Below, piece after piece: positions 36,988 to 56,172 of a stretch of DNA of 56,443 nucleotides. The translations under genes and the position numbers were made by a program. Position 1 is the stretch's first letter, and each line of letters starts with the position of its first letter. The notes under the pieces were generated by a model. It worked only from the letters and a program-made list of their open reading frames with translations, did no database searches and was not told the DNA's origin. This DNA is from an uncultured Chlorobiaceae bacterium (GTDB lineage Bacteria; Bacteroidota; Chlorobiia; Chlorobiales; Chlorobiaceae): assembly GCA_903865705.1 (NCBI GenBank), contig CAIPKT010000104.1:1-56443 (forward strand), in the 5' to 3' direction.

Positions 36988-38277
36988 TCAGTTTCCTCCA
37001 GTGATGGTTGTGTAAAAAAAATAGCTGTTGAGAGCAATCACAAGCAGAGAAACAAGAGCGGCCGTAATAAACTCTGCGTTCCCGCTTCTGAAACCGCCCA
37101 TCACCTTTCGGTTACGGCAGAGCATCAGTAAGGGAATAAGGGTAAAAGGAAGCTGCAGACTCAAAATCACCTGGCTCATAATCAGGATGCGAAAAGTGTC
37201 CAGACCCAAGAGAATGACGAGAAGGGCCGGAATAGCCGTAACAAAGACAGCAACCCGGTAAAACAAGGTGCGGGGATCCGCCGGCCTGCCAAGAAAACCC
37301 GTTATCACATCAGCTTCCGCCATGGATGAGGTAATGGAAGAACCGACACCCGAAAAAACAAGGGCAACGGCAAACAGCAGACCGGCAAGCGGTCCGGCTA
37401 ACGGTTTCAGAGTTGCCGATGCCTGTTCGATGCTGTTGACCGAAACATGATTATTGAAAAAAACTGCTGCCGCAACAATGATCATCGAAGAGTTGACCAC
37501 CCACCCGAGCGTCATGGCAACAATGGTATCCATCTTTTCATAACGAAGCAACTCTCTTTTCTCTTCTTCCGAAATCCCCCACTCCCTGCTGTGAATAACG
37601 TTTGAATGGAGAAAGATATTGTGCGGCATCACCAGCGCTCCGAGAATGGCCAGCGCAACATAAATGCTCTCCCGGCCAACCCTCGGCACCACAACGCTGG
37701 GAGCTACTGCGGCCCAATCAGGCCGAACAATAAACAGCTCAGCAAGATAGCAGAGCGTGATAATACCAAGGAAACCAACAATGATGGTTTCGACCCGGTG
37801 ATAGCGTTGGCTGATGATAAGAAACACCTCAAGAAGCAACGTCAACACCGCACCCATCCAGAGCGGTATGCCAAACAGCAGACTGAAGCCTATCCCGCCT
37901 CCCAGAAGCTCGGCTACATCAGTTGCAATACAGGCAAGCACAACACTCACGCCCAGAAAAGCGCTAACCGGCTTCGAAAAATTATCGCGGATGTTGACCG
38001 CCAGCGATTTCCCCGTAGCGATTCCCAGTTTAGCCGCCATATGCTGAATGAGCACCAGCATGAGGGTACCAAGGGTAACCACCCACAGCAACTCATAGCC
38101 GAACTTCGACCCTCCCTCAATATTTGTAGCCCAGTTACCGGGATCGACAAAGCCAACCGTCACAAGAAACCCCGGACCAAGAAAGCTGAGAAGCGTCTTG
38201 AGCGAAAACGCCTTCTTTTCCGGCATCCTGGATAGATCAGCGACGGCCCCCATTCCTGCGTTTTTCAAATCCGACAT
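36988..38277 (-). CDS. mntH: NRAMP-family divalent metal transporter
   Basis: Proton-coupled importer of Mn2+ or Fe2+ in the inner membrane. The 429-aa product has eleven helices, the metal-binding VGFVDPGNWATNI motif in helix 1 and VMPHNIFLHSNV in helix 6, as in MntH. Both DPGN and MPHN are intact, so transport should work. It is the first gene of a pair with usp. Regulation is not visible: no clear MntR or Fur box was seen upstream, and 38278-38566 has none that I can name. Confidence 0.93.
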   Translation of the reverse strand: MSDLKNAGMGAVADLSRMPEKKAFSLKTLLSFLGPGFLVTVGFVDPGNWATNIEGGSKFGYELLWVVTLGTLMLVLIQHMAAKLGIATGKSLAVNIRDNFSKPVSAFLGVSVVLACIATDVAELLGGGIGFSLLFGIPLWMGAVLTLLLEVFLIISQRYHRVETIIVGFLGIITLCYLAELFIVRPDWAAVAPSVVVPRVGRESIYVALAILGALVMPHNIFLHSNVIHSREWGISEEEKRELLRYEKMDTIVAMTLGWVVNSSMIIVAAAVFFNNHVSVNSIEQASATLKPLAGPLAGLLFAVALVFSGVGSSITSSMAEADVITGFLGRPADPRTLFYRVAVFVTAIPALLVILLGLDTFRILIMSQVILSLQLPFTLIPLLMLCRNRKVMGGFRSGNAEFITAALVSLLVIALNSYFFYTTITGGN

Positions 38278-38566
38278 GATTAGGCTTTTTTAAAACAAAA
38301 TACGCTTGCGATCCTGCTCGGGGGATGCATGCAAGGAAAAAGAATTCTGACTGAACGCAAGAGAGAACTGCTGGCTGCCAAGAAATCGAAGCACTGTTGA
38401 ATAGTAAATGTAGTACTCTGATTTCACAATAATAGTACACCTGGATTATGTTTTTTATTTTTTATTACATAAATTATACAATGTTTTATACTCCCAAAAT
38501 ATCGTCACGGTCTGAGAACTCAGGTCTATCAGTCTTATCTGCTTCAGGCAATAAAAGATTACTCTT

Positions 38567-38752
38567 ATGAAAGAAGAAACAAATAATTCCTCTCTCCTGA
38601 AGAATAAGATAGATGACTCTGTCGATAAGCAGAAGGAACTCAATGACACCGGGTCTCCAAGTAAAAACGAGAATGAACAGCAAAAAGCATTCAACCATCT
38701 CGCCCAACATGTAAAGGTACTTAACTTATTATTTTATAGTCTTATAAAGTAA
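38567..38752 (+). CDS. Possible small protein (61 aa), uncertain
   Basis: Frame of 61 codons: a lysine- and glutamate-rich, polar N-terminal part (MKEETNNSSLLKNKIDD) and a hydrophobic end (KVLNLLFYSLIK). No good ribosome site. It could be a real small protein or chance coding in AT-rich DNA. I do not recognise it. Confidence 0.25.
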   Translation: MKEETNNSSLLKNKIDDSVDKQKELNDTGSPSKNENEQQKAFNHLAQHVKVLNLLFYSLIK

Positions 38753-38770
38753 ACTATAATTTTAACAGAG

Positions 38771-38926
38771 ATGAATCATGGCACTCACCAGGATCGCCCC
38801 TCCCTGAGCCAGAATGCCATTGACCTTGTGAGAGACGAGGGCCCGTTATATCTGCTCTATAGCTTCTCAGGCTGGGGATTCGAGAATGGCATTAAGACAA
38901 CTGACGAAGTCGTAGGCGACAGGTGA
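38771..38926 (+). CDS. Possible small ORF (51 aa), uncertain
   Basis: Frame beginning MNHGTHQDRPSLSQN and reading GPLYLLYSFSGWGFENG before the end TTDEVVGDR. Residue use is protein-like and the GC level is higher than in the flanks, which suggests a remnant of a larger gene or a short real protein. Not recognised. Confidence 0.25.
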   Translation: MNHGTHQDRPSLSQNAIDLVRDEGPLYLLYSFSGWGFENGIKTTDEVVGDR

Positions 38927-39040
38927 ATTAAAGTAATCCAACCGAAGGCGTTAGAATAAATAAATCGCATTGAGCAGTCTCTTTTGGCTGGTTTGCTTTT
39001 TCAGGGCGTAGGTTGAATTTTATGAGGAGGGATTTTGTTA

Positions 39041-39499
39041 ATGGTTTCTGTTCGATTTAGATTCCCGAGAGTTTGTGTCTCTCTTCAACCTACATTTTTT
39101 ATCTCCATGGAAACTTATAAACTTGTCCTGCCTGAACACCTCAATCATTACGGTTTTCTCTTCGGCGGCAATCTTTTGAAATGGATTGACGAGATTGGCT
39201 ATATCACCGTCTCTCTGGATTACCCCGGTTGCAACTTTGTAACCGTCGGCATGGACAAGGTGGAGTTTAAAAAAAGCATCCGGGGTGGTTCCATACTCTG
39301 TTTTGTGACTGAGAAAACCAAAATCGGGCATACATCAATCGAGTACACCGTCCGCGTGTACAAAAAAAGTATCGAAACCGGTGAACGGGTTATGGCTTTC
39401 AGTACGCATATTACCTTTGTCTGTCTTGACGACAAGGGAAAAAAGAAGGGACTTTGCTGCGGCTATAAAGAGAAAGGCACAGAAAACAACTGCATCTAA
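39041..39499 (+). CDS. Hotdog-fold acyl-CoA thioesterase (YciA type)
   Basis: Cleaves acyl-CoA thioesters. The 152-aa product has the core [21 protein letters not shown] (about residues 28-48, part shown) with the catalytic aspartate, and [15 protein letters not shown] for the active groove. GAGGAGG ten bases upstream points to the ATG at 39041, which adds 22 residues before [11 protein letters not shown]; homologs often begin at the latter, so 39107 is an alternative. The last residues contain cysteines (GLCCGYKEK). It converges on the LptF/G permease gene. Confidence 0.85.
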
Positions 39500-42931: not shown

Positions 42932-43108
42932 TATATTTTTACCTGTTTCATACCCAATGGGATCGATGTTGCAATGTTGCAACGTCCATTCAAGATCACA
43001 CAACCCGCGAGGTAAAGTGGCTTCAGGGCAAAAAATAACACGATTCCGCAGAAAAAGAAACAGATTCAGGTAACCCGCCGCAAAGTTCACTGTTAAGAAT
43101 AAAATCTC

Positions 43109-43228
43109 TTAACGTCCGATTTTGTCAGAATTACGAATATCGGGGCGCTCCAGATTGCTGTAAGGTTTTTCAGGAAAAGCCGTTCTGCAAAGAGTGGTTT
43201 TACCTGATTGCCTTGGACCGGTAAGCAT
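43109..43228 (-). pseudogene. Remnant of an AAA/DUF4143-type ATPase
   Basis: The minus strand reads MLTGPRQSGKTTLCRTAFP then EKPYSNLERPDIRNSDKIGR and stops. That is the Walker A (GPRQSGKTT) start of the ATPases fused to a DUF4143 domain, which are near 400 residues and often mobile or toxin-linked. Only about 39 codons remain, with a stop upstream too, so it is a broken leftover. No intact copy lies in the window. Confidence 0.65.
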
Positions 43229-43292
43229 TACAAAAGAATATTATAAGCCCCCCGATGCTGCAGGGTCGGCATTAGATGACGTGCAATCATTG

Positions 43293-43327
43293 TATGCAAT
43301 ATTAAAGTTGAATCTTAATATTGCATA
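43293..43327. repeat. Perfect AT-rich inverted repeat
   Basis: Arms TATGCAATATTAA (43293-43305) and TTAATATTGCATA (43315-43327) around a 9-base loop. It lies 65 bases from the AAA remnant. It may be the end of a lost mobile element, a protein-binding site or a message-end hairpin; no T run supports a terminator. Confidence 0.6.
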
Positions 43328-43572
43328 GTAAAGCAAAAACCAAGAAAATTTGACCAACGTCCATTCTCCTCCCGGTCTCCCACCTTTTCTTGCCCTTGCC
43401 GCTGTCAGACCTGCATGGGTAGGTTCCTGATTTTGAAGAAGGAATGCAAAATTGAGTTTACATGATGTTTACAATGAAGAGAAGAATACCTCACTCAAAT
43501 TAGGCTACCTTAAAACTGAAATTTACAGATGTGTCTTAATACAGTCCAAATACTATTAAAAAGAAACCTAAG

Positions 43573-44274
43573 ATGGAGTGGTTGTATTGCGATTTCCATA
43601 TTCATACAACATGGAGTGACGGGGATTTGTCAATCAAGGATGTTGTGCAGTTGTATGGTGAAGCCGGGTTTGATGTCATAGCTATAACAGACCATATACT
43701 TGACAGCAAGAGTTTGTTACAGGCAAACAAAGCGTATGGAAATCATTGCAGTATTGAAAAAAAAGACTTTATCCATTATCAGCGAGAGCTCTGGAATGTC
43801 GCCCGTTATGCATGGGAAGCCTATAAGATGCTGGTTATTCCCGGTATTGAGCTCACTAACGATACCTCAAAATATCACATTCTTGCGCTTGATAACAAAG
43901 AGTATATCAGCCCGGATCTCGGAGTTGAAGATATCCTGAATGAAATTAAAGCTCAAGGCGGGATTTCTATTGCTTGCCACCCGTATATTCGTAACCATTC
44001 CGGTGAAGCACCGTCCGAGTATCTCTGGACTAATCAGGATCGGTTTGCGTTGAAGTTTGATGCATGGGAAGTCGCAAACAGGGATGATCTTTTCAATGTT
44101 GTCGGGTTAAAAAAATTCAATTACATCGCCAACTCTGACTTTCATCAGGTCAAACATCTCCGGTCGTGGAAAACGCTGTTGCGGTGCAGCCGAAATACTG
44201 AAGCTGTCAAACAGGCCATAAGAACCAACGAAGCGGTTGCCTTATTTCTATACCGGGGAGGTTCCCTAAAATAA
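43573..44274 (+). CDS. PHP-domain metal-dependent phosphoesterase
   Basis: 233-aa PHP protein. The metal-binding set is complete: DFHIHTTWSDG (7-17), ITDHILDS, PGIELTND, CHPYIRNHSG and NSDFHQ near residue 195. Such enzymes hydrolyse phosphate esters such as nucleoside phosphates or act in DNA repair; the exact substrate is unknown. It stands alone after a 640-base gap and precedes umuDC by 200 bases on the same strand, so a repair link is possible but not shown. Confidence 0.85.
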   Translation: MEWLYCDFHIHTTWSDGDLSIKDVVQLYGEAGFDVIAITDHILDSKSLLQANKAYGNHCSIEKKDFIHYQRELWNVARYAWEAYKMLVIPGIELTNDTSKYHILALDNKEYISPDLGVEDILNEIKAQGGISIACHPYIRNHSGEAPSEYLWTNQDRFALKFDAWEVANRDDLFNVVGLKKFNYIANSDFHQVKHLRSWKTLLRCSRNTEAVKQAIRTNEAVALFLYRGGSLK

Positions 44275-47485: not shown

Positions 47486-47656
47486 ATGCTGAAAAAGTTC
47501 TTCTCTATCAAATCACAAAAAGGCGTAACGATGATTGAGTACGCCTTGATTGCCGCTCTGGTTGCTGTTGGTGTGATTGTAGCTCTTGGTCCTCTTAGAG
47601 ATGCGATAATTGACCTTTTTAATACTGTTGCAACGGCACTCAATAATGCTGCTTAA
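47486..47656 (+). CDS. flp: Flp-type pilin
   Basis: Main subunit of the Flp/Tad pilus, a thin adhesive fibre. The 56-aa prepilin starts MLKKFFSIKSQKG; the expected cut is after that glycine, before VTMIEYALIAALVAVG, where the E-Y pair at +5/+6 is diagnostic. A single hydrophobic helix follows and the tail ends NNAA. The ATG at 47486 has GGGAG eight bases upstream. First gene of the locus at 47.5-56.4 kb. Length fits the family (50-70 aa). Confidence 0.92.
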   Translation: MLKKFFSIKSQKGVTMIEYALIAALVAVGVIVALGPLRDAIIDLFNTVATALNNAA

Positions 47657-47684: not shown

Positions 47685-48500
47685 GTGAAACTACCAGTAT
47701 TTGCTCTTGCCATCGCCCTCACTCTGGGTGCGATGGCAGCTTTTATCGCAGCCCGCTGGATGAACGATGCTCAAACCTCCGTATCCAGGGTCGTCATCGT
47801 TGAGCAGCCCATCGAAGCAGGCAAAGCTATTACGGTTGATCAAATCAAGGCCATCGATTGGCCAAGTTCGACCGTTCCCCGAGATGTATCAACTCGCACA
47901 ACTGACGTGGCGGGTCGAATTGCCCGCGTCTCCATGATCCCGGGTGAGCCTGTTTTACTTGGCAAATTGGCCCCTAAAACAGCAACGGGAGGCTTATCCT
48001 CGACCATCCCGGAGGGCAAACGCGCCATTACAATTCAAGTAACCGAGGTGATTGCTGTTGCTGGATTTGCCCTTCCGGGTAGCTACGTGGATGTTTTGGT
48101 TAGCAGCAAAGACGCCAACCAAGAGCCTTTTTCGCGAACAGTGCTGTCGCGCATCAAAGTGTTGGCTGTGGCCCAACAAACCACAGCAAATCCTGATGAG
48201 CCAAAAGTGGTCAATGCCGTAACCCTTGAGCTTACGCCGCTTGAATCAGAAAAGCTTGATCTGGCCCGCAATATCGGGAAGCTTGCTCTCGTCTTGCGCA
48301 ACGAATTCGACACCAGCGTCATAAACTCCGCTGGAGTGCGTCTGCAGGATATTATGAATTCACGGCCCGCTGATGCTGCCACTTCTTCGACGGCTGCATC
48401 AGCGCCACCGGATACCCAGACTGTGGCGGCACCGTTGCGTCAAAGCCATGGACCCGAAGAAATTCGTGGCGCCAGCCGCCAAACTGCTGTCACACCCTAA
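47685..48500 (+). CDS. cpaB: Tad pilus assembly protein CpaB/RcpC
   Basis: Periplasmic protein that supports the secretin channel. The 271-aa product begins at GTG with a membrane-signal helix (PVFALAIALTLGAMAAFIAA), followed by a SAF-like domain (IEAGKAITVDQIKAIDWP, about residues 43-62) that resembles antifreeze and flagellar FlgA domains, and a second repeat near VAVAGFALPGSYVDVLV (described loosely). The last 50 residues are low-complexity with Ala, Ser and Pro. It lies 28 bases after flp and 5 bases before the secretin gene. Confidence 0.9.
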   Translation: MKLPVFALAIALTLGAMAAFIAARWMNDAQTSVSRVVIVEQPIEAGKAITVDQIKAIDWPSSTVPRDVSTRTTDVAGRIARVSMIPGEPVLLGKLAPKTATGGLSSTIPEGKRAITIQVTEVIAVAGFALPGSYVDVLVSSKDANQEPFSRTVLSRIKVLAVAQQTTANPDEPKVVNAVTLELTPLESEKLDLARNIGKLALVLRNEFDTSVINSAGVRLQDIMNSRPADAATSSTAASAPPDTQTVAAPLRQSHGPEEIRGASRQTAVTP

Positions 48501-48505
48501 CCTAC

Positions 48506-49927
48506 ATGCACATGAATTTGATATGTCTAATGCGTTTTACCTTTAGGATGAGTGCTTTTGTAGCGCTTCTTGCTGGCACCGTAAGCGTGAGCGCAATGGC
48601 CTCTCCCTCGATCTACCTTGTGCCTGTGGGCGAATCCAGGGTCTACCGGCTCGCACGACCCATTACACGTGTTGCCGTGGGCAACCCGGAGGTGGCCGAT
48701 TATATCATCATTAACCCTTCCGAACTCTATCTGCTGGGTAAAAAAACAGGCGCAACCAATCTTGTTGTCTGGGATCAAAAAGGCAACTTCACCTCCACAC
48801 CGTTGCAAGTCAGCCGTAATATCCACCCCATAGAAGTCATGTTGAAAGTCGTTTTGCCCAATGAGACCGACATTCAGATTTTTGCCTGGGGGCCAGCGTT
48901 GGTACTGGCCGGCACGGTGTCGAACACCCTGGTTGCAGAAAGCGCCTACCGCCTGGTAAAATCGTATATGGGTGGCACGGTACCGGAAGTCAACCCCGAA
49001 ACGACCCTGGCGAATAGTGCCTCTGCCAGTGGCTCTGCGGCAACCACCATATCTGGCATGGGCGGTAGCAGCTCTGCTTCTGCCTCAGCCTCAGCCTCAG
49101 CCCCGGTTTCAGCGGCATCTGCCAACATACCTGGCGTGGTCAACCTCCTCAAAGTCCGCGACTCGCAACAAGTCCGCCTCGAAGTCCATATTGCTGAAGT
49201 TTCAAAGTCATACCTCGAAACGTTGGGCCTCGGCTGGACGCCAAGCTCAGGCAATATCCAAGGCAGCTTCCGTTCAGGGTTTGTCAGCAACGCCACGCTT
49301 GACCTCTTTCTGCATGGCAACCGGCTCCAGGTTGAAGCCCAGCGCAAAAACAGTTTGATTAAAATCCTGGCAGAACCTACCATTGTCGCCTTGAGCGGTC
49401 AAGAGGGGTACTTCCTGGTTGGCGGCAAAATTTATACGCCCACGGTCGGCTCCAACGGTACGGTCGACTACGTCGAACGCACCTATGGCGTTGGTTTGCG
49501 GTTTACGCCCATCGTACTGGATGGTGGTCGTATTTTGCTCAAGGTTGCACCTGAGGTCTCTGAGCCTAACCTGGTACCTGTCACTGCCGGAACAGCAAAC
49601 AATTTACCCTCCTTTAAAATCAGCTACGCTTCCACCAGCGTCCAAATGAAAGAGGGTGAAAATCTCGTTATTGGCGGTCTTCTGCGCGAAAAACTTACCG
49701 AAGACATACAGAGAGTGCCCTTGCTGGGTGACATTCCCCTTCTCGGCGCACTATTCCGACGCATCGAGAAGAGTTCTGAAACGACCGAACTCATGGTTGT
49801 AATTCGACCAACCCTGGTCAAAGCCAGCGCCTCTGCGCCGGTGCTCCCCACAGACAGGTTTGCCGCGCCTACTCAAAAAGAGCTTTTCATCGACGGAAAG
49901 CTTGAAGGGTCACGGGGGGTAAAATGA
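48506..49927 (+). CDS. cpaC: Tad pilus secretin CpaC/RcpA
   Basis: Outer-membrane ring through which the pilus passes. The 473-aa product has a signal peptide (to about residue 32), the N-terminal BON/pilus-retraction-like part (VGNPEVADYIIINPSELYLLG) and the C-terminal secretin domain with VALSGQEGYFLVGG and VPLLGDIPLLGALFR. Residues about 165-205 are a Ser/Ala run (SASASASASAPVSAAS) coded by GCCTCA hexamers. It ends with its TGA overlapping the tadE ATG. Full length. Confidence 0.93.
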   Translation: MHMNLICLMRFTFRMSAFVALLAGTVSVSAMASPSIYLVPVGESRVYRLARPITRVAVGNPEVADYIIINPSELYLLGKKTGATNLVVWDQKGNFTSTPLQVSRNIHPIEVMLKVVLPNETDIQIFAWGPALVLAGTVSNTLVAESAYRLVKSYMGGTVPEVNPETTLANSASASGSAATTISGMGGSSSASASASASAPVSAASANIPGVVNLLKVRDSQQVRLEVHIAEVSKSYLETLGLGWTPSSGNIQGSFRSGFVSNATLDLFLHGNRLQVEAQRKNSLIKILAEPTIVALSGQEGYFLVGGKIYTPTVGSNGTVDYVERTYGVGLRFTPIVLDGGRILLKVAPEVSEPNLVPVTAGTANNLPSFKISYASTSVQMKEGENLVIGGLLREKLTEDIQRVPLLGDIPLLGALFRRIEKSSETTELMVVIRPTLVKASASAPVLPTDRFAAPTQKELFIDGKLEGSRGVK

Positions 49928-50370
49928 GCGCAATGCGCGCAGATGCAGACAGGCTTCATGCCCCAACAACGGAGCGCGCTCAATCCCAAAAGGGCAGTGC
50001 TTTAGTCGAATTTGCGCTCATCCTGCCTATATTTCTGATGCTCATCTTCGGGATGGTTACTTTTTCTTTAGCCCTGTACAACAAAACCGTGCTCACCATG
50101 GCTACCCGTGAGGGTGCGCGTGCCGGAGCCAAGTACGTTGCAAACCGGACCAACACCCTCATCAAGAGCAACGCCACCACAGCTGTTACTGGTGCCTGTG
50201 GTAACCACCTCATCTCCTTTGGGACTGCCATGACCCCCATTATCACCTTTAATGCCGATCCGATTACTGACAAAATCCTCACCGTCAAAGCAAGAGTCAA
50301 TTACACTGGACTCTACATTTTTTCGATCAGTATTCCAATCTCGGCCCAATCCAGCATGAGGCTCGAATAA
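49924..50370 (+). CDS. tadE: TadE-family pseudopilin
   Basis: Minor pilin-like protein with a type IV-like signal: QKGSALVEFALILPIFLML (about residues 22-40) with the conserved glutamate at +5 after the glycine cut site. 148 aa, single membrane helix and a short periplasmic head with paired beta strands. Its ATG overlaps the cpaC stop by four bases, so translation is coupled. A typical TadE domain. Confidence 0.9.
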   Translation: MSAMRADADRLHAPTTERAQSQKGSALVEFALILPIFLMLIFGMVTFSLALYNKTVLTMATREGARAGAKYVANRTNTLIKSNATTAVTGACGNHLISFGTAMTPIITFNADPITDKILTVKARVNYTGLYIFSISIPISAQSSMRLE

Positions 50371-50372
50371 CC

Positions 50373-51521
50373 ATGGCACTTTCACACCACATCATCAAAC
50401 CGCTGCATGGCCATCGAGGCGGTGTCGCTATTTTGTTTGCCCTGTGCTTGCCGGTATTGATTGGCTTTGCCGCTTTGGCGGTTGATCTGGCCCGCATCAA
50501 CCTGACCAAGGTCGAACTGCAAAACGCAGCCGACGCTGCTGCCCTCGGCGGCGCTCGTTCACTCAGCGACACAGGGAGCTATCCCAATTGGTCAGCGGCC
50601 ACGGCCACGGCGTTGAATGTGGCACGACGCAACTTCGCCAATGACGGCCACCTGATTCAGGATGCTACCATTAATACGGGTTACAGGAACAATGACCCCT
50701 CGATCCGGGTCACGATTGCTATCTCCGGCACCCAAAATAACGGGCCCTTGCCGTTGTTTTTCGCCCCCATTCTGGGTATTGCCCCAAAAGTCATTCAAGC
50801 CAGTGCCGTTGCCACGATAACTGGTGGAGGTGGTCCTTTTGACTATGCAATATTTTCAGGCAGCACTTCAAATAATATGAGTATAAACGGCAGCTCTTAT
50901 AATATTAAAGGTTCAGTTCATGCCAATAAAAATCTAGATATCAATGGTAGTTCGATTACTATTACTGGTGCTGCAGAAGCAAGAGGAACAGTTACAACGA
51001 ATGGCAGCAACCTTAATATAGGTTCAATATTACCTAATGATGCAAGAGATATACCCATGCCGGATCAAAGTGCTTCTATAGCCGCAGCGGCAGCGGCAGC
51101 TCATCAAACGTATACCGGTTCCAAAACCATTAATGGAAGCAGTATTACTTCTAACCCGATTTACGTTCAAGGAAGTCCAGGCACTATCACGGTAAATGGC
51201 TCTTCATTTACCGCTACAGGAGCTGTTATGGCAGATGGCAATATTACTATAAATGGCAGTGGTGCGGCCTCAGGCAACAGTCAGGTATGCTTTTATTCTA
51301 AAAACGGCAATATAACTCTTAATGGTGGTAGTTATGCCCTAAATGGGGTATTGTACGCCCCCAATGGCAGCATTTTTATCAATGGTAGTAGCATTACGGT
51401 AAATGGTTCTATTGTAGGTAAAAAAATAAATATAAACGGTAGCAGTTTTAAAGTTGATAGAACCAATTATCCAATAACATCGCTATCGTTGCCAGGAACT
51501 AATGTGCAGTTGGTTGAATAA
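50373..51521 (+). CDS. tadG: TadG-like minor pilin with NGSS-repeat domain (chimeric)
   Basis: 382-aa protein. Residues 1-150 are a normal TadG opening: one membrane helix (VAILFALCLPVLIGFAALAV), VDLARINLTKVELQNAADAAALGGAR, and ITGG. From about residue 155 it becomes a run of short beta units with about six N-G-S-S and five N-G-S or N-G-G-S motifs, one turn roughly every 15-25 residues, as expected for a beta-solenoid. The DNA changes too: 34 of 60 bases are G or C at 50401-50460 but 18 of 60 at 50881-50940. No VWA domain is seen. The normal TadG C-terminus appears to lie out of frame just downstream. It could be a pilus-surface or adhesin subunit. Confidence 0.75.
   Translation: MALSHHIIKPLHGHRGGVAILFALCLPVLIGFAALAVDLARINLTKVELQNAADAAALGGARSLSDTGSYPNWSAATATALNVARRNFANDGHLIQDATINTGYRNNDPSIRVTIAISGTQNNGPLPLFFAPILGIAPKVIQASAVATITGGGGPFDYAIFSGSTSNNMSINGSSYNIKGSVHANKNLDINGSSITITGAAEARGTVTTNGSNLNIGSILPNDARDIPMPDQSASIAAAAAAAHQTYTGSKTINGSSITSNPIYVQGSPGTITVNGSSFTATGAVMADGNITINGSGAASGNSQVCFYSKNGNITLNGGSYALNGVLYAPNGSIFINGSSITVNGSIVGKKININGSSFKVDRTNYPITSLSLPGTNVQLVE
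50868..51455 (+). repeat. Coding repeats for N-G-S-S motifs in tadG
   Basis: About eleven imperfect copies of a unit coding I/V-N-G-S-S/G, at uneven 15-30 residue steps, with codons that differ between copies (AACGGCAGC, AATGGTAGT, AATGGCTCT). That points to old divergence rather than recent slippage. Amino acid pattern N-G-S is also a glycosylation-like sequon, but no glycosylation gene is beside it. Confidence 0.7.
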
Positions 51522-51697
51522 TTAGATTTAGGAGTAAATTTCTCGTAGCTCCTTTGGAGGATTTTATAAAACAGACGATAAAAAATATTACGGGTTATTT
51601 CATCAACAACGTGCCAATCGCCCCCACTGACCTGGGCACCGGCAACGGCAACGGTTTGCCACTTGGCGCCTACAGTCCACCCATACTGGTACAATAG
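51518..51697 (+). pseudogene. Orphan C-terminal fragment of a TadG protein
   Basis: In the frame one base behind tadG's, the sequence runs without a stop from 51518 to 51697 and reads EDFIKQTIKNITGYFINN and then APTDLGTGNGNGLPLGAY, ending YSPPILVQ. A proline-lysine/leucine-valine-glutamine ending is typical of TadG C-termini as I recall them. It has no start codon of its own beyond a TTG. GC returns to high (38 of 60 at 51601-51660). This fits the original end of tadG left behind by a segment swap or frameshift. Confidence 0.6.
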
Positions 51698-51698
51698 C

Positions 51699-52889
51699 AT
51701 GAACATTTTTACATATTCTCCCCACCCCTGGGAGGTTCCCGATAAACAACTTGAGCTGGGTCAACACCAACTGACCCGACTGGTGGGTGAGCAAGGGGAC
51801 ATGGAGCGCAAACTCACAGCCCAAAAACCAGACTTCGTATTTCTCGTAGGTTTTGACCCCACAGCCCCTCATTACATGCATGAGGTAGAGAAACTCTGCC
51901 TTGCTCTACCGCTTACCGCCATCGTGGTTCTGCGCCCACAAGCACCGCCTGAAATTTTGTTATCGCTTATGCGCGCTGGAGTGCGTGAAGTCATTGTCGA
52001 CAGCACCCCCGAAACCCTGAAACAAGTTATCGAACGCGCTCATCTTCGTGCCAGACGCGCCAGCATTATTAGTCAGGGTCGGGTTTTTGGATTTGTTTCT
52101 TCCAAGGGTGGAGATGGCAGCTCTTTCATAGCGGCCAACCTGGCCTTTGCTCTCTCTCAAGATCCCCGAAAAGGTACCCGTGTGCTGGCGATCGATTTTT
52201 CTTTACCCTTTGGCGACCTTGACATGTACCTCTCCGGAGATATCCACCTTCAAGATTTGGCTGATATCTCCAGTCAATCCGACCGGATCGACCAGTCGCT
52301 GCTCGACAGCATGGTGCAGCACCTCAGCCCAAAGCTCGACCTCATTTCCTCACCAGCCACGTTCGAAAAAATCGTTCAAATCGAACCCCAGCGCGTGAGC
52401 GAACTCATTCACATTGCTACCGCCTTTTACGACTACATTGTGGTTGACTTTGGCACCTCTTTCCATCAAGTTGACATTTGGCTTCTCGAGCACCTTAACG
52501 AACTCTGCATCGTCTTGACTCCAACGCTGCCATCGCTGCGCCGGGCGGGACAACTACTCGAACTCTGGAAAGAATTTGAAAAACCCACCACCCGTATCGA
52601 AATCATCCTCAACCGTGCTGACTCAGGTGTTAACATTTCTGGTTCCGAAATCGAGAAAGTCATCGGCAGGCAAATTGACAGACGCTTTCCCTCTGACCCG
52701 GAAGCGGTGCAAAAATCCCTTTTGCTTGGTAAGCCCTTCTTGCAGGTTGACCCAAAATCCAAATTTTCCAAAACCATCGACGACTGGGCAGCACACCTCA
52801 CGGGCAGCAGTCGTCGTAAACGCTCCTCGTTATGGCAACGCTTAAAGAGCAAATTGCTCGCTGGAACCTCTCTTCAAAAGGGACTTTAG
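51699..52889 (+). CDS. tadZ: Tad localisation ATPase TadZ/CpaE
   Basis: MinD/ParA-like ATPase that positions the pilus machine at the cell pole. The 396-aa product has a degenerate receiver-like N-terminal part (about 1-120) and the deviant Walker A VSSKGGDGSSFIAANLA (about residues 133-149), then LAIDFSLPFGDLDMYLSGD and YDYIVVDFGTSFHQ. The ATG at 51699 is preferred to one 12 codons earlier, which lies in the TadG fragment. It overlaps cpaF by 58 bases. Usual length. Confidence 0.9.
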   Translation: MNIFTYSPHPWEVPDKQLELGQHQLTRLVGEQGDMERKLTAQKPDFVFLVGFDPTAPHYMHEVEKLCLALPLTAIVVLRPQAPPEILLSLMRAGVREVIVDSTPETLKQVIERAHLRARRASIISQGRVFGFVSSKGGDGSSFIAANLAFALSQDPRKGTRVLAIDFSLPFGDLDMYLSGDIHLQDLADISSQSDRIDQSLLDSMVQHLSPKLDLISSPATFEKIVQIEPQRVSELIHIATAFYDYIVVDFGTSFHQVDIWLLEHLNELCIVLTPTLPSLRRAGQLLELWKEFEKPTTRIEIILNRADSGVNISGSEIEKVIGRQIDRRFPSDPEAVQKSLLLGKPFLQVDPKSKFSKTIDDWAAHLTGSSRRKRSSLWQRLKSKLLAGTSLQKGL

Positions 52890-54271
52890 CTCCCCCTGCA
52901 TCGTCGACTGCAACCACGGAGACGCAGTCACAACCTCACGAGGTGACGGCTCCAGCTTCGCCTGACGCAGCGCCGGCGATAACCGTCAATGCATCCCCAG
53001 GGGGTGACTATTACGTGGCTAAAATGAAGTTGCACCAAAAGCTGCTCACCCGCATTGACCTTAACGCCATCGAAAGCATGACCCCCGGGCAACTGCGCAA
53101 CGAGCTTGGGGTTTTGCTTCTTTCGCTCATCAAAGAAGACGATATCCGGCTCAATGAACAAGAGCGCGCCCAGGTGGTGGCCGACCTCAAAAACGAAATC
53201 ATGGGTCTGGGCCCTTTGGAGCCCTTGCTGGCCGACCCCTCCATTTCTGAAATCATGGTCAACGGTTACCAGAAGGTCTATGTCGAAAAAAGCGGCTGCA
53301 TTCAACTCACCGACATCCGCTTCAACGACGACGTACACCTCATGAAAATCATCGACAAAATAGTCTCTCATGTTGGGCGGCGCATCGATGAATCCAGCCC
53401 AATGGCCGATGCCCGCCTGCCCGATGGGTCGCGCATCAACGCCATCATTCCGCCGTTGGCTCTCGATGGTCCTGTCCTCACCATTAGGCGCTTTGCGGTT
53501 GTACCCATGCAAATGCACGACCTTATTCAAAAAAACACACTCACGCCAGCCATGGATGAACTGTTGTCAGCTCTGGTTAAAGTTAAGTGCAACATCATCA
53601 TTTCCGGGGGGACTGGTTCGGGTAAAACGACGCTGCTCAACATTCTTTCGGGCTTTATTCCGACCACCGAACGCATCGTCACCATCGAAGACACTGCCGA
53701 ACTGCAGCTTCAGCAAGATCACGTTATTCGCCTCGAAACGCGCCAGCCAAACATCGAAGGTAAAGGCGAAATTTCCATGCGTGCACTTGTGAAAAACTCC
53801 TTGCGCATGCGGCCCGACCGAATCGTGCTTGGCGAGGTTCGCAGTGCCGAGGTGATCGACATGCTCCAGGCTATGAACACCGGACACGAGGGCTCGCTCA
53901 CCACCATTCACGCCAACAGCCCGCGTCATGCGCTGGGCCGGCTTGAAAACCTGGTGGGCATGGGTGGCATCAGCCTGCCCAGCAAAGCTCTGCGCGAGCT
54001 TATTTCCTCGTCGCTTCAGATTATCGTCCAAATCTCACGAATAACTGACGGTAGCCGCAAGATCACGAGTATTCAGGAAATCATCGGCATGGAAGGCGAC
54101 GTCATTACCACCCAGGAAATCTTTAGCTACAAGCGCACCGGCACGAACCCGGACGGAACGGTGCAAGGAGTGTTCAAAGCCACGGGCGTGCGTCCCAATG
54201 TATCTGAAAAAATTCGCACCTATGGCATCAGCCTTAGTGAGGGCATGTTCGACTCTGATGCCAACGACTAA
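52832..54271 (+). CDS. cpaF: Tad pilus secretion ATPase CpaF/TadA
   Basis: Motor ATPase that powers assembly of the Flp pilus. The 479-aa product has the N-terminal segment (to about 130), then Walker A ISGGTGSGKTTLLN near 258-271, Asp box TIEDTAELQL, Walker B RPDRIVLGEVRSAEV and the His box TGHEGSLTTIHANSPRHAL. All active-site elements are intact, as in type II/IV secretion ATPases. It begins inside tadZ in another frame, so the two are coupled. Full length. Confidence 0.95.
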   Translation: MATLKEQIARWNLSSKGTLAPPASSTATTETQSQPHEVTAPASPDAAPAITVNASPGGDYYVAKMKLHQKLLTRIDLNAIESMTPGQLRNELGVLLLSLIKEDDIRLNEQERAQVVADLKNEIMGLGPLEPLLADPSISEIMVNGYQKVYVEKSGCIQLTDIRFNDDVHLMKIIDKIVSHVGRRIDESSPMADARLPDGSRINAIIPPLALDGPVLTIRRFAVVPMQMHDLIQKNTLTPAMDELLSALVKVKCNIIISGGTGSGKTTLLNILSGFIPTTERIVTIEDTAELQLQQDHVIRLETRQPNIEGKGEISMRALVKNSLRMRPDRIVLGEVRSAEVIDMLQAMNTGHEGSLTTIHANSPRHALGRLENLVGMGGISLPSKALRELISSSLQIIVQISRITDGSRKITSIQEIIGMEGDVITTQEIFSYKRTGTNPDGTVQGVFKATGVRPNVSEKIRTYGISLSEGMFDSDAND

Positions 54272-54286
54272 CCTACGAGCAACATC

Positions 54287-55243
54287 ATGATGACATTTTT
54301 GTTACCCTTTTTTGTTTTTGCGGCAGTCATGTTGATCTTGCTGCTGGCCTATGTGGTGTGGGGCAACTTTTTTGACCGCCGCAACAAAATCAAAAAAAAA
54401 CGATTGTTGGCCATCCACAACGCCGTTCACCCGGGCAAGCAAAGCCTCGGCAGCTTGCAGGACAGTGCATTCGAAACTTCGCTACGCTTACGCTTCAAAG
54501 CGTTTGAGCAACTCGAAACCCTGGTTCAACGCGCCCACAGCCAGCTCTCTGCCGTGCGCATAATGGGCCTAATGTTCGCCTTGTGTATAGTTGTTTTAGT
54601 GTTTGGTCTTCTGCTCAAAATCAATTTCTTGCTTCTGCTCGTTCTGGCCATCGCAATCGGCAGAATGCCGGTTCTGTGGTTATCTCGAAAGGCCAACAAA
54701 CGCCGCAAAGCTTTCGAAGACAAGCTCCCGGAAACGCTCGACTATATCTCACGCGCAATGCGCGCCGGCCACAGCCTTACCTCGGCCATCGGCATGGTTG
54801 GCAAGGAGTTCGCGGACCCCATAGGTCAAGAATTCAAAACCGTCTTCGATGAAATCTCCTTCGGCATCTCATTCAAAGAGGCCATCGGCCAGCTCGCCGA
54901 TCGCGTTCAAAGCAACGATATCAATTTCTTTGTCATATCCCTTATGATTCAGCATGAAACTGGTGGTAACCTCACCGAACTACTCGATGGGTTGGCCAAA
55001 ACCGTGCGCGAACGCGTCAAACTGCGCGGCAAAATGCGCACACTCGCAGCCGAAGGGCGCGCGTCAGCATGGGTATTGGGCAGTATACCATTTGCGCTCG
55101 GCGGTATCCTCTCGCTCATAAGTCCCGGCTACATGTCGGTACTCTGGACCACTCCCCAAGGCCAGACCCTCATCCTTATCGCTGCTGGACTCATGGCCGT
55201 TGGCTTCTTTCTGCTCAACCGCATCGTCCAGATCAAGGTTTAA
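54287..55243 (+). CDS. tadB: Tad pilus inner-membrane protein TadB
   Basis: T2SF-type platform protein, partner of TadC. The 318-aa product has a first helix pair near residues 4-25 and 85-125, the F-domain with RAMRAGHSLTSAIGMVGKEF, a second near FFVISLMIQHETGGNLTELL, and closing helices. Follows cpaF by 15 bases. Typical length, signals intact. Confidence 0.92.
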   Translation: MMTFLLPFFVFAAVMLILLLAYVVWGNFFDRRNKIKKKRLLAIHNAVHPGKQSLGSLQDSAFETSLRLRFKAFEQLETLVQRAHSQLSAVRIMGLMFALCIVVLVFGLLLKINFLLLLVLAIAIGRMPVLWLSRKANKRRKAFEDKLPETLDYISRAMRAGHSLTSAIGMVGKEFADPIGQEFKTVFDEISFGISFKEAIGQLADRVQSNDINFFVISLMIQHETGGNLTELLDGLAKTVRERVKLRGKMRTLAAEGRASAWVLGSIPFALGGILSLISPGYMSVLWTTPQGQTLILIAAGLMAVGFFLLNRIVQIKV

Positions 55244-55260
55244 CCCTAACCACAATTATC

Positions 55261-56172
55261 ATGCAAGCCATCCTGCAAATTTTGACCATCGTGCTCTCAG
55301 GGGCCGCCGTCGCCTCGGTTGTGCTCGCGTTGTACAATTGGGTGATCGACAACTCCCTCAAAAAAAACCTCGTTCAAATCGTTCGCCAAGGCTTGGCCCC
55401 AGCCGATACCCACAACGTAGCCGCCGTTATCAACATCCTCTCAAAACTTTCGCTTCCGGAAGAAGGGTGGCAAAGCTCCAACGTTCAGCTCAAGTTTTTG
55501 CAAGCCGGCATTCGCAACAAAAACGCACCTCAGTACTATTTTGCCGTTAAAACCTTGCTCACACTGGTGCTGCCGGTGGTGCTGGCTATACTACTGCATT
55601 TTATCCAGCCTCAAAGCTCCTTCGCTCTTGGCCTTTTCTGGGTGCTGCTCACAGCCGCAGCGGGCTACTACCTGCCTGAAATATTGCTGCGCTTAATCAC
55701 TAAAAAACGTATCGAACGCATGCGCAACAGCCTCCCCGACATGATTGACCTCATGGTTATTTGCACCGAGTCGGGCATGAGCATAGACGCTGCCATTGCT
55801 CGCATATCGCACGACATGGCTAACACCAACCCCGACCTGGCCCAGGAGTTTTCCCTCTCAGCCCTCGAAATGCGCGCTGGTTCAACCCGCATTGAAGCCT
55901 TGCACAACCTGGCACTGCGCTCACACCTCGAAGATCTGGAAGACCTTGTCTCCGTGCTCATACAGGCCGAAAAATTTGGAACCAGCCTGGCCGTATCGTT
56001 GCGTGTGCAGTCAGATATGATGCGTACACGCCGCACCCAACGTGCCGAAGAGATGGCCGCAAAAATCCCCGTCAAAATGACGGTACCACTCATCTTATTT
56101 ATATTCCCGACGCTTTTTATTGTGCTGCTGGGGCCGGCAGCCATCAAGATCATGGAAGTCTTTAAAAAATAA
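55261..56172 (+). CDS. tadC: Tad pilus inner-membrane protein TadC
   Basis: Second T2SF-type platform protein. The 303-aa product begins MQAILQILTIVLSGAAVAS at 55261, which is the first ATG in frame after tadB; a longer frame from 55069 is a shadow of tadB. Four helices; F-domain motifs at SLPDMIDLMVICTESGMSID and the second half near VSVLIQAEKFGTSLAVSLRV. No strong ribosome site; coupling to tadB through an 18-base gap is likely. Confidence 0.92.
   Translation: MQAILQILTIVLSGAAVASVVLALYNWVIDNSLKKNLVQIVRQGLAPADTHNVAAVINILSKLSLPEEGWQSSNVQLKFLQAGIRNKNAPQYYFAVKTLLTLVLPVVLAILLHFIQPQSSFALGLFWVLLTAAAGYYLPEILLRLITKKRIERMRNSLPDMIDLMVICTESGMSIDAAIARISHDMANTNPDLAQEFSLSALEMRAGSTRIEALHNLALRSHLEDLEDLVSVLIQAEKFGTSLAVSLRVQSDMMRTRRTQRAEEMAAKIPVKMTVPLILFIFPTLFIVLLGPAAIKIMEVFKK

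Follow-up and report, generated by a model that had tools for sequence, protein, structure and literature searches.

A Chlorobium tadG gene whose C-terminal module appears to have been replaced by one of Bacillota type

Large TadGs whose C-terminus is a modular domain have been proposed to form the backbone of the Tad pilus tip, where such modules would customise the function of the pili (PMC12075869). In Caulobacter a candidate tip pilin is CpaL, which carries a vWA domain (PMC12607857), and in Thermus the beta-solenoid pilin ComZ, which binds DNA, has been argued to fit nowhere but at the pilus tip (PMC6561018). The window analyzed here, a stretch of 56,443 nucleotides from a genome of 226 contigs, contained a tad locus at 47.5–56.2 kb with genes for Flp pilin, CpaB, RcpA, TadE, TadG, CpaE, TadA, TadB, and TadC. 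The genus is called Chlorobium throughout on the basis of its named close relatives, which are uncultured Chlorobiaceae MAGs. Taking the explanation as a whole, we consider it probable that the ORF at 50373–51521 encodes a TadG minor pilin that is functional and that received its C-terminal module from a Bacillota-type tadG in place of the original one, yielding one chimera that then spread by recombination.

The tad locus and the two parts of its tadG

The gene was placed in the TadG family by its position next to tadE, in a tad locus with a secretin, an ATPase and TadB/TadC, the order of which was conserved in relatives. The protein had an N-terminal Tad domain with a hydrophobic helix (PF13400; residues 16–62, E = 1.8e-12) and a Tad_C-like stretch at residues 60–147, which scored 22.0 bits, just under the cut-off of 22.1. 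The C-terminal part contained 13 NG turns, whereas 10,000 composition-preserving shuffles averaged 3.5 and never exceeded 11; this bears out an earlier description of an NG-turn-rich C-terminus on a TadG core, and the module was internally repetitive. Pfam also recognized a domain there: DUF7305 matched residues 263–362 (34.6 bits against a curated cut-off of 27; profile positions 80–179 of 185) and covered the module only partly; no paper on DUF7305 was found in the literature searched. The Pfam scan of the window TadG gave neither a vWA nor a DUF3494 match. The lack of vWA, which the initial annotation had singled out, is uninformative, because the ordinary Chlorobium TadG that was scanned had no Pfam vWA match either.

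GC counts given earlier for this region (34/60, 18/60, and 38/60) were exact on recount, and the dip that they describe is real, with a composition break at codons ~141–151 of TadG. Its proposed extent was too short, since the AT-rich stretch does not end at the 51521 stop and continues to about 51577 (GC of 0.28 in the spacer and 0.57 in the remnant described below). The GC3 was 0.61 in residues 1–154 and 0.28 in residues 155–382, compared with 0.51–0.64 in the neighboring genes, indicating that amino-acid usage alone does not account for the dip. Two other parts of the window, at 38093–39152 and 43078–44127, were equally AT-rich over 684 nt; low GC alone would therefore prove little, and the dip was treated as a lead. 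The module is spanned by an inverted repeat of 18 nt (50796–50813 and 51641–51658, 83%), which was taken as chance.

Table 1. Features of the tad locus, in coordinates of the window.
Feature	Coordinates	Strand	Basis
Flp-type major pilin (presumed from its Flp-like N-terminus), 56 aa, MLKKFFSIKSQKGVTMIEYALIAALVAVG...	47486..47656	+	Read from sequence, Flp-like N-terminus
Presumed CpaB/RcpC-like protein	47685..48500	+	ORF; gene order kept in relatives' loci
Presumed RcpA/CpaC-type secretin	48506..49927	+	ORF; relatives' loci
TadE-like minor pilin	49924..50370	+	Pfam TadE, E = 2.7e-17
Apparently chimeric tadG, whole ORF, 382 aa	50373..51521	+	
TadG core, residues 1–152, apparently native to Chlorobium	50373..50828	+	Pfam Tad, GC3 0.61, common to ordinary TadGs
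Predicted beta-solenoid C-terminal module, residues 153–382, Bacillota TadG type	50829..51518	+	DUF7305, GC3 0.28, AlphaFold2, Bacillota homologues
AT-rich non-coding spacer 3' of the solenoid stop	51522..51577	+	Alignment with other solenoid loci
Untranslated, apparently displaced remnant of ordinary TadG C-terminus, NITGYFINNVPIAPTDLGTGNGNGLPLGAYSPPILVQ*	51578..51697	+	Profile match
CpaE/TadZ-like protein	51699..52889	+	ORF; relatives' loci
TadA/CpaF ATPase	52832..54271	+	ORF; relatives' loci
TadB-like protein	54287..55243	+	ORF, match, relatives' loci
TadC-like protein; listed ORF, true start probably further in	55069..56172	+	Second, weaker TadB-type match at 55555–56001

The displaced end and the states of tadG in the genus

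After an AT-rich spacer of ~56 bp, one frame at 51578–51697 read IKNITGYFINNVPIAPTDLGTGNGNGLPLGAYSPPILVQ*, corresponding to the last ~36 codons of the ordinary Chlorobium tadG end, a displaced remnant that the initial annotation missed. A profile built from nine ordinary Chlorobium TadG ends matched the downstream DNA of the window with 52 bits (E = 1e-16), compared with 9.3 bits for the best of 1000 shuffles of that stretch read in six frames. The same profile gave 65 bits in G017, 51 in G010 and 16 in G021, and was marginal in G016 and G063. There was no obvious start codon for the remnant in the window, and alignment showed that G016, G021, G063, and G083 have lost part of it or retain it in decayed form, as expected for dead DNA. 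Its location behind the solenoid stop indicates that the ordinary end was displaced and that the solenoid is the derived state; at the level of sequence, both the replacement and its direction are thus documented.

Only spacer and remnant lay between tadG and cpaE, with no displaced tip on a core fragment and no tip arrays. The spacer (...GCTCCTTTGATGGATTTTATAAAACAGACGATAATAA...) was present in five of the six other solenoid loci (short in G083) and absent in G016. It was common to both solenoid subtypes, and the remnants began at about the same place. No promoter or terminator was found inside it, and the Bacillota loci examined gave no convincing match that would make it a donor 3' flank.

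The TadE–CpaE interval was extracted from 19 tad loci of the genus, and the end of tadG could be read in 18, of which seven had the solenoid, ten an ordinary end, and one no C-terminal module. The solenoid was thus not unique to the window (G000) but was also carried by G010, G016, G017, G021, G063, and G083. The normal, different C-terminus sought in relatives was found in the ten ordinary loci, those of G011 (two loci), G012, G024, G026, G062, G072, G078, and G084 (two loci); one of them, L053, was cut by the interval end just before its terminus. The tadG of G034 was cut at a contig end; it is absent from the TadA+CpaE tree below and was labeled ordinary by mistake in the N-terminal, RcpA, and TadE trees. 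Ordinary TadGs were about 333–356 aa long and ended in ...GKYITGHFI...NPGTGNGV-YGAYTPPILVK. They (L062, L055, L060, and others) resembled the window protein in core, gene order, and genomic position, and their last residues survive as the window's remnant, but their C-terminal ~175 residues form another module (GLFPFVI...QWTTF...PPILVK), without solenoid repeats. The locus without a module (G077, L059) encoded a TadG of 152 aa ending in ...HSILVE, the ordinary terminal residues, and its tadG showed an apparent internal deletion of the end module. Two genomes each had two separate tad loci, all with ordinary tadG ends (L062/L065 in G084 and L052/L053 in G011). DUF7305 was found in seven of 61 genomes of the genus, exactly the seven solenoid ones. 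In a phylum sample of 198 genomes, a sequence model of the solenoid matched four, each of them belonging to this genus.

Bacillota homologues and probable spread within Chlorobium

The solenoid model (228 positions), built from the Chlorobium copies and L018, a contig of a Bacillota MAG, matched 29 of 250 genomes of one Bacillota class. All seven matches that were read were TadG-like ORFs; five aligned over essentially the whole module, and a strong TadA match lay within a few kb of tadG in five. One Bacillota protein scanned consisted of Pfam Tad plus DUF7305, and that of G168 matched the model end to end (positions 1–228 of 228, E = 1e-66). Four Bacillota TadGs (L110/G168, L111/G139, L112/G172, and L113/G159) combined a Tad core with the same solenoid, from GGPF to a final LIE/LVE, and their genes, like that of the window, sit in a tad cluster beside TadA. 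They differ in having Bacillota cores and loci of 62–65% GC, whereas the window has a Chlorobium core with an AT-rich module. The junction in the window was located where Bacillota TadGs also start the module (GGPFxYxIFSGS). Judged by these homologues, the module is a usual TadG end of another phylum. Since the same domain occupies the same place on Bacillota TadGs, the event would have been a swap between two TadG genes and not a fusion of an unrelated domain. The foreign-domain fusion first proposed therefore stands as to a replaced C-terminus, foreign to Chlorobium, and is not supported as to a novel joining of an unrelated surface domain.

The closest non-Chlorobium copy in the genome collection, and the sole close outside match, was that of L018 (74% identity), a 5'-truncated solenoid fragment at 1780–2406 without a Tad core. 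It fell within the Chlorobium solenoid group with moderate support, so that its own transfer could have run the other way. Contamination was considered and rejected, as the neighboring methyltransferase had 59–70% identical homologues in the same Bacillota class and the contig looks native to the Bacillota bin. A viral or plasmid origin of the module was likewise not retained: no relative was found in IMG/VR (queried with a single protein, a search limited to close relatives) or in phages, plasmids gave only a distant Ruminococcus match (29%), and a viral fold search returned solenoid look-alikes only.

In the TadA+CpaE tree, the solenoid loci were scattered, and a single solenoid clade was rejected (AU p = 4.2e-7). 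The window was sister to ordinary G026, G010 to ordinary G012, and G083 to ordinary G072, and well-supported branches forced at least five state changes. The tree describes the locus, which is prone to mosaicism, and should not be read as a species tree. The RcpA and TadE trees showed no clean association with the C-terminal state and both differed from the TadA+CpaE tree, so that recombination has probably left the entire tad locus a mosaic. The RcpA alleles had about 82–86% or 64–76% DNA identity to the window's rcpA and did not follow TadA/CpaE, which suggests recombination there too. The rcpA of L056 (G016; 9939–8424, minus strand) reads in two frames, with 14 stops in a straight read, as an assembly error, a pseudogene, or slippage could produce. 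The patchy distribution, the foreign composition, and the Bacillota homologues can all be read directly from the DNA.

Divergence at fourfold sites was lower in the solenoid than in CpaE+TadA for the pairs window–G017 (0.11 and 0.32), window–G010 (0.15 and 0.27), window–G016 (0.20 and 0.32), G017–G010 (0.13 and 0.24), and G017–G016 (0.14 and 0.31); bootstrap comparisons were one-sided, over 21 pairs, and uncorrected for multiplicity. The reduction was confined to G000, G010, G016, and G017, apart from a few pairs that involved G021/G063. In comparisons with G083 it was not seen, which fits older sharing. The spacer common to six loci, including both subtypes, argues for one founding event, and the pattern reads as an older origin of the chimera with later recombination among some species.

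We accordingly favor the following sequence of events. A recombination event directly behind the pilin core would have brought into a Chlorobium tadG the solenoid-coding half of a tadG of Bacillota type, together with some 56 bp from its 3' side. The ordinary end would thereby have been pushed behind the new stop, where its last ~36 codons would persist and decay as a remnant. A single origin of the chimera is probable, followed by exchange among Chlorobium species through recombination at tadG, and the solenoid allele would now coexist with ordinary-ended alleles and one without an end module.

It is rather unlikely that the solenoid allele entered the ancestor of the clade once and that both alleles were then sorted into species without recent horizontal spread. 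Such sorting would account for the common spacer and 3' junction of six loci, and for fourfold divergence similar to that of flanking genes in the G083 comparisons and in G016 compared with G021/G063. It does not agree with the about two- to three-fold lower solenoid divergence of window–G017, window–G010, and G017–G016, nor with an end state discordant with genes 200 bp away. Repeated, independent acquisition from different Bacillota donors seems improbable: the existence of two subtypes (the NGSS type and that of G021/G063), the position of the Bacillota contig L018 among the NGSS type, and only borderline rejection of a single Chlorobium clade (AU p = 0.06) would suit it, but independent events would not give a spacer common to six of seven loci and both subtypes (partial in G083), or remnants starting at about the same place. 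An origin in place, by drift or internal repeat expansion of the ordinary end without foreign DNA, would agree with the internal repeats but can be dismissed, being already contradicted by the end-to-end match with Bacillota TadGs and by the persistence of the ordinary end as a remnant.

Beyond the single replacement and later spread preferred here, we hold it possible, somewhat short of probable, that the tadG end is a general exchange point at which Chlorobium species, and occasionally phyla, trade tip modules after the pilin core. If true, displaced ends would be left behind, and tip specificity would evolve through the exchange of cassettes rather than gradually. The locus itself would represent a tip exchange that occurred in nature, in which the old end can still be seen and direction and approximate breakpoints are given, and close relatives with an ordinary end, a solenoid, or nothing offer a natural experiment on the role of the tip module.

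Predicted fold and comparison with known systems

The full-length TadG model was too poor to use (pLDDT 53), and the module was therefore folded alone. AlphaFold2 (five sequences) predicted a solenoid, rich in beta structure and with a single short helix (pLDDT 81.9, pTM 0.84), in line with the solenoid initially proposed. The module had no significant sequence relative of known structure. Top Foldseek matches in the PDB were DUF3494 ice-binding proteins (best E = 3.6e-3, probability score 0.99) and tapirins, with TM at or below 0.5 and E-values above 0.001; these matches speak for a solenoid and not for a function. The solenoid frame was open in all seven loci, with dN/dS of about 0.3–0.5 in close pairs. 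Together with published tip pilins, the open frames favor the module as a putative contact part at the tip. If the protein behaves like the Tad and type IV minor pilins described in the literature, its core would insert in the membrane and assemble into the pilus with TadE and Flp, and its solenoid would be displayed at the filament tip and contact the target; tip location, binding, and the route of recombination are all inferred. As the solenoid would be the contact part, the swap would change what the pilus touches, and the locus points to a function-bearing role for DUF7305.

Two more specific functions were considered. A role of the solenoid tip in DNA uptake, as the receptor that binds nucleic acid, on the model of Thermus, seems very doubtful: ComZ (6qvi), a DNA-binding beta-solenoid pilin argued to sit at the tip (PMC6561018), was among the Foldseek matches, but the match was weak (TMq 0.47, probability score 0.57, E = 0.5), the module is not positively charged (10 K+R and 9 D+E), and the ComZ solenoid is inserted, not fused at the end. 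Binding of ice or another crystalline or glycan surface is highly improbable; it would follow the top Foldseek matches, yet TM values were below 0.5, Pfam did not recognize DUF3494, and beta-solenoids match by shape alone.

As a putative tip contact module, the window's solenoid can be set beside four described cases. The KilN/TadG tips of Myxococcus (PMC12075869) and Caulobacter CpaL (PMC12607857) are, like the protein proposed here, TadG-type minor pilins with a C-terminal domain at the proposed tip. The Myxococcus tips carry KilN paralogue heads and CpaL a vWA domain, which the window protein lacks, and the variation reported for them is one of paralogous tip sets, whereas the window has a swap within one gene that left a remnant. 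Thermus ComZ (PMC6561018, PDB 6qvi) shares with the window protein a beta-solenoid on a pilin, but it is not a Tad pilin, its solenoid is inserted in the pilin fold whereas that of the window follows the core, and no sequence similarity was found between them. From the C-terminal displacement of rhs genes (PMC2935791) the window differs by having no tip arrays, no repeated core copies, and only ~36 codons of the old end; as here, a conserved core stays in place, a new C-terminus displaces the old one, and a fragment is left downstream.
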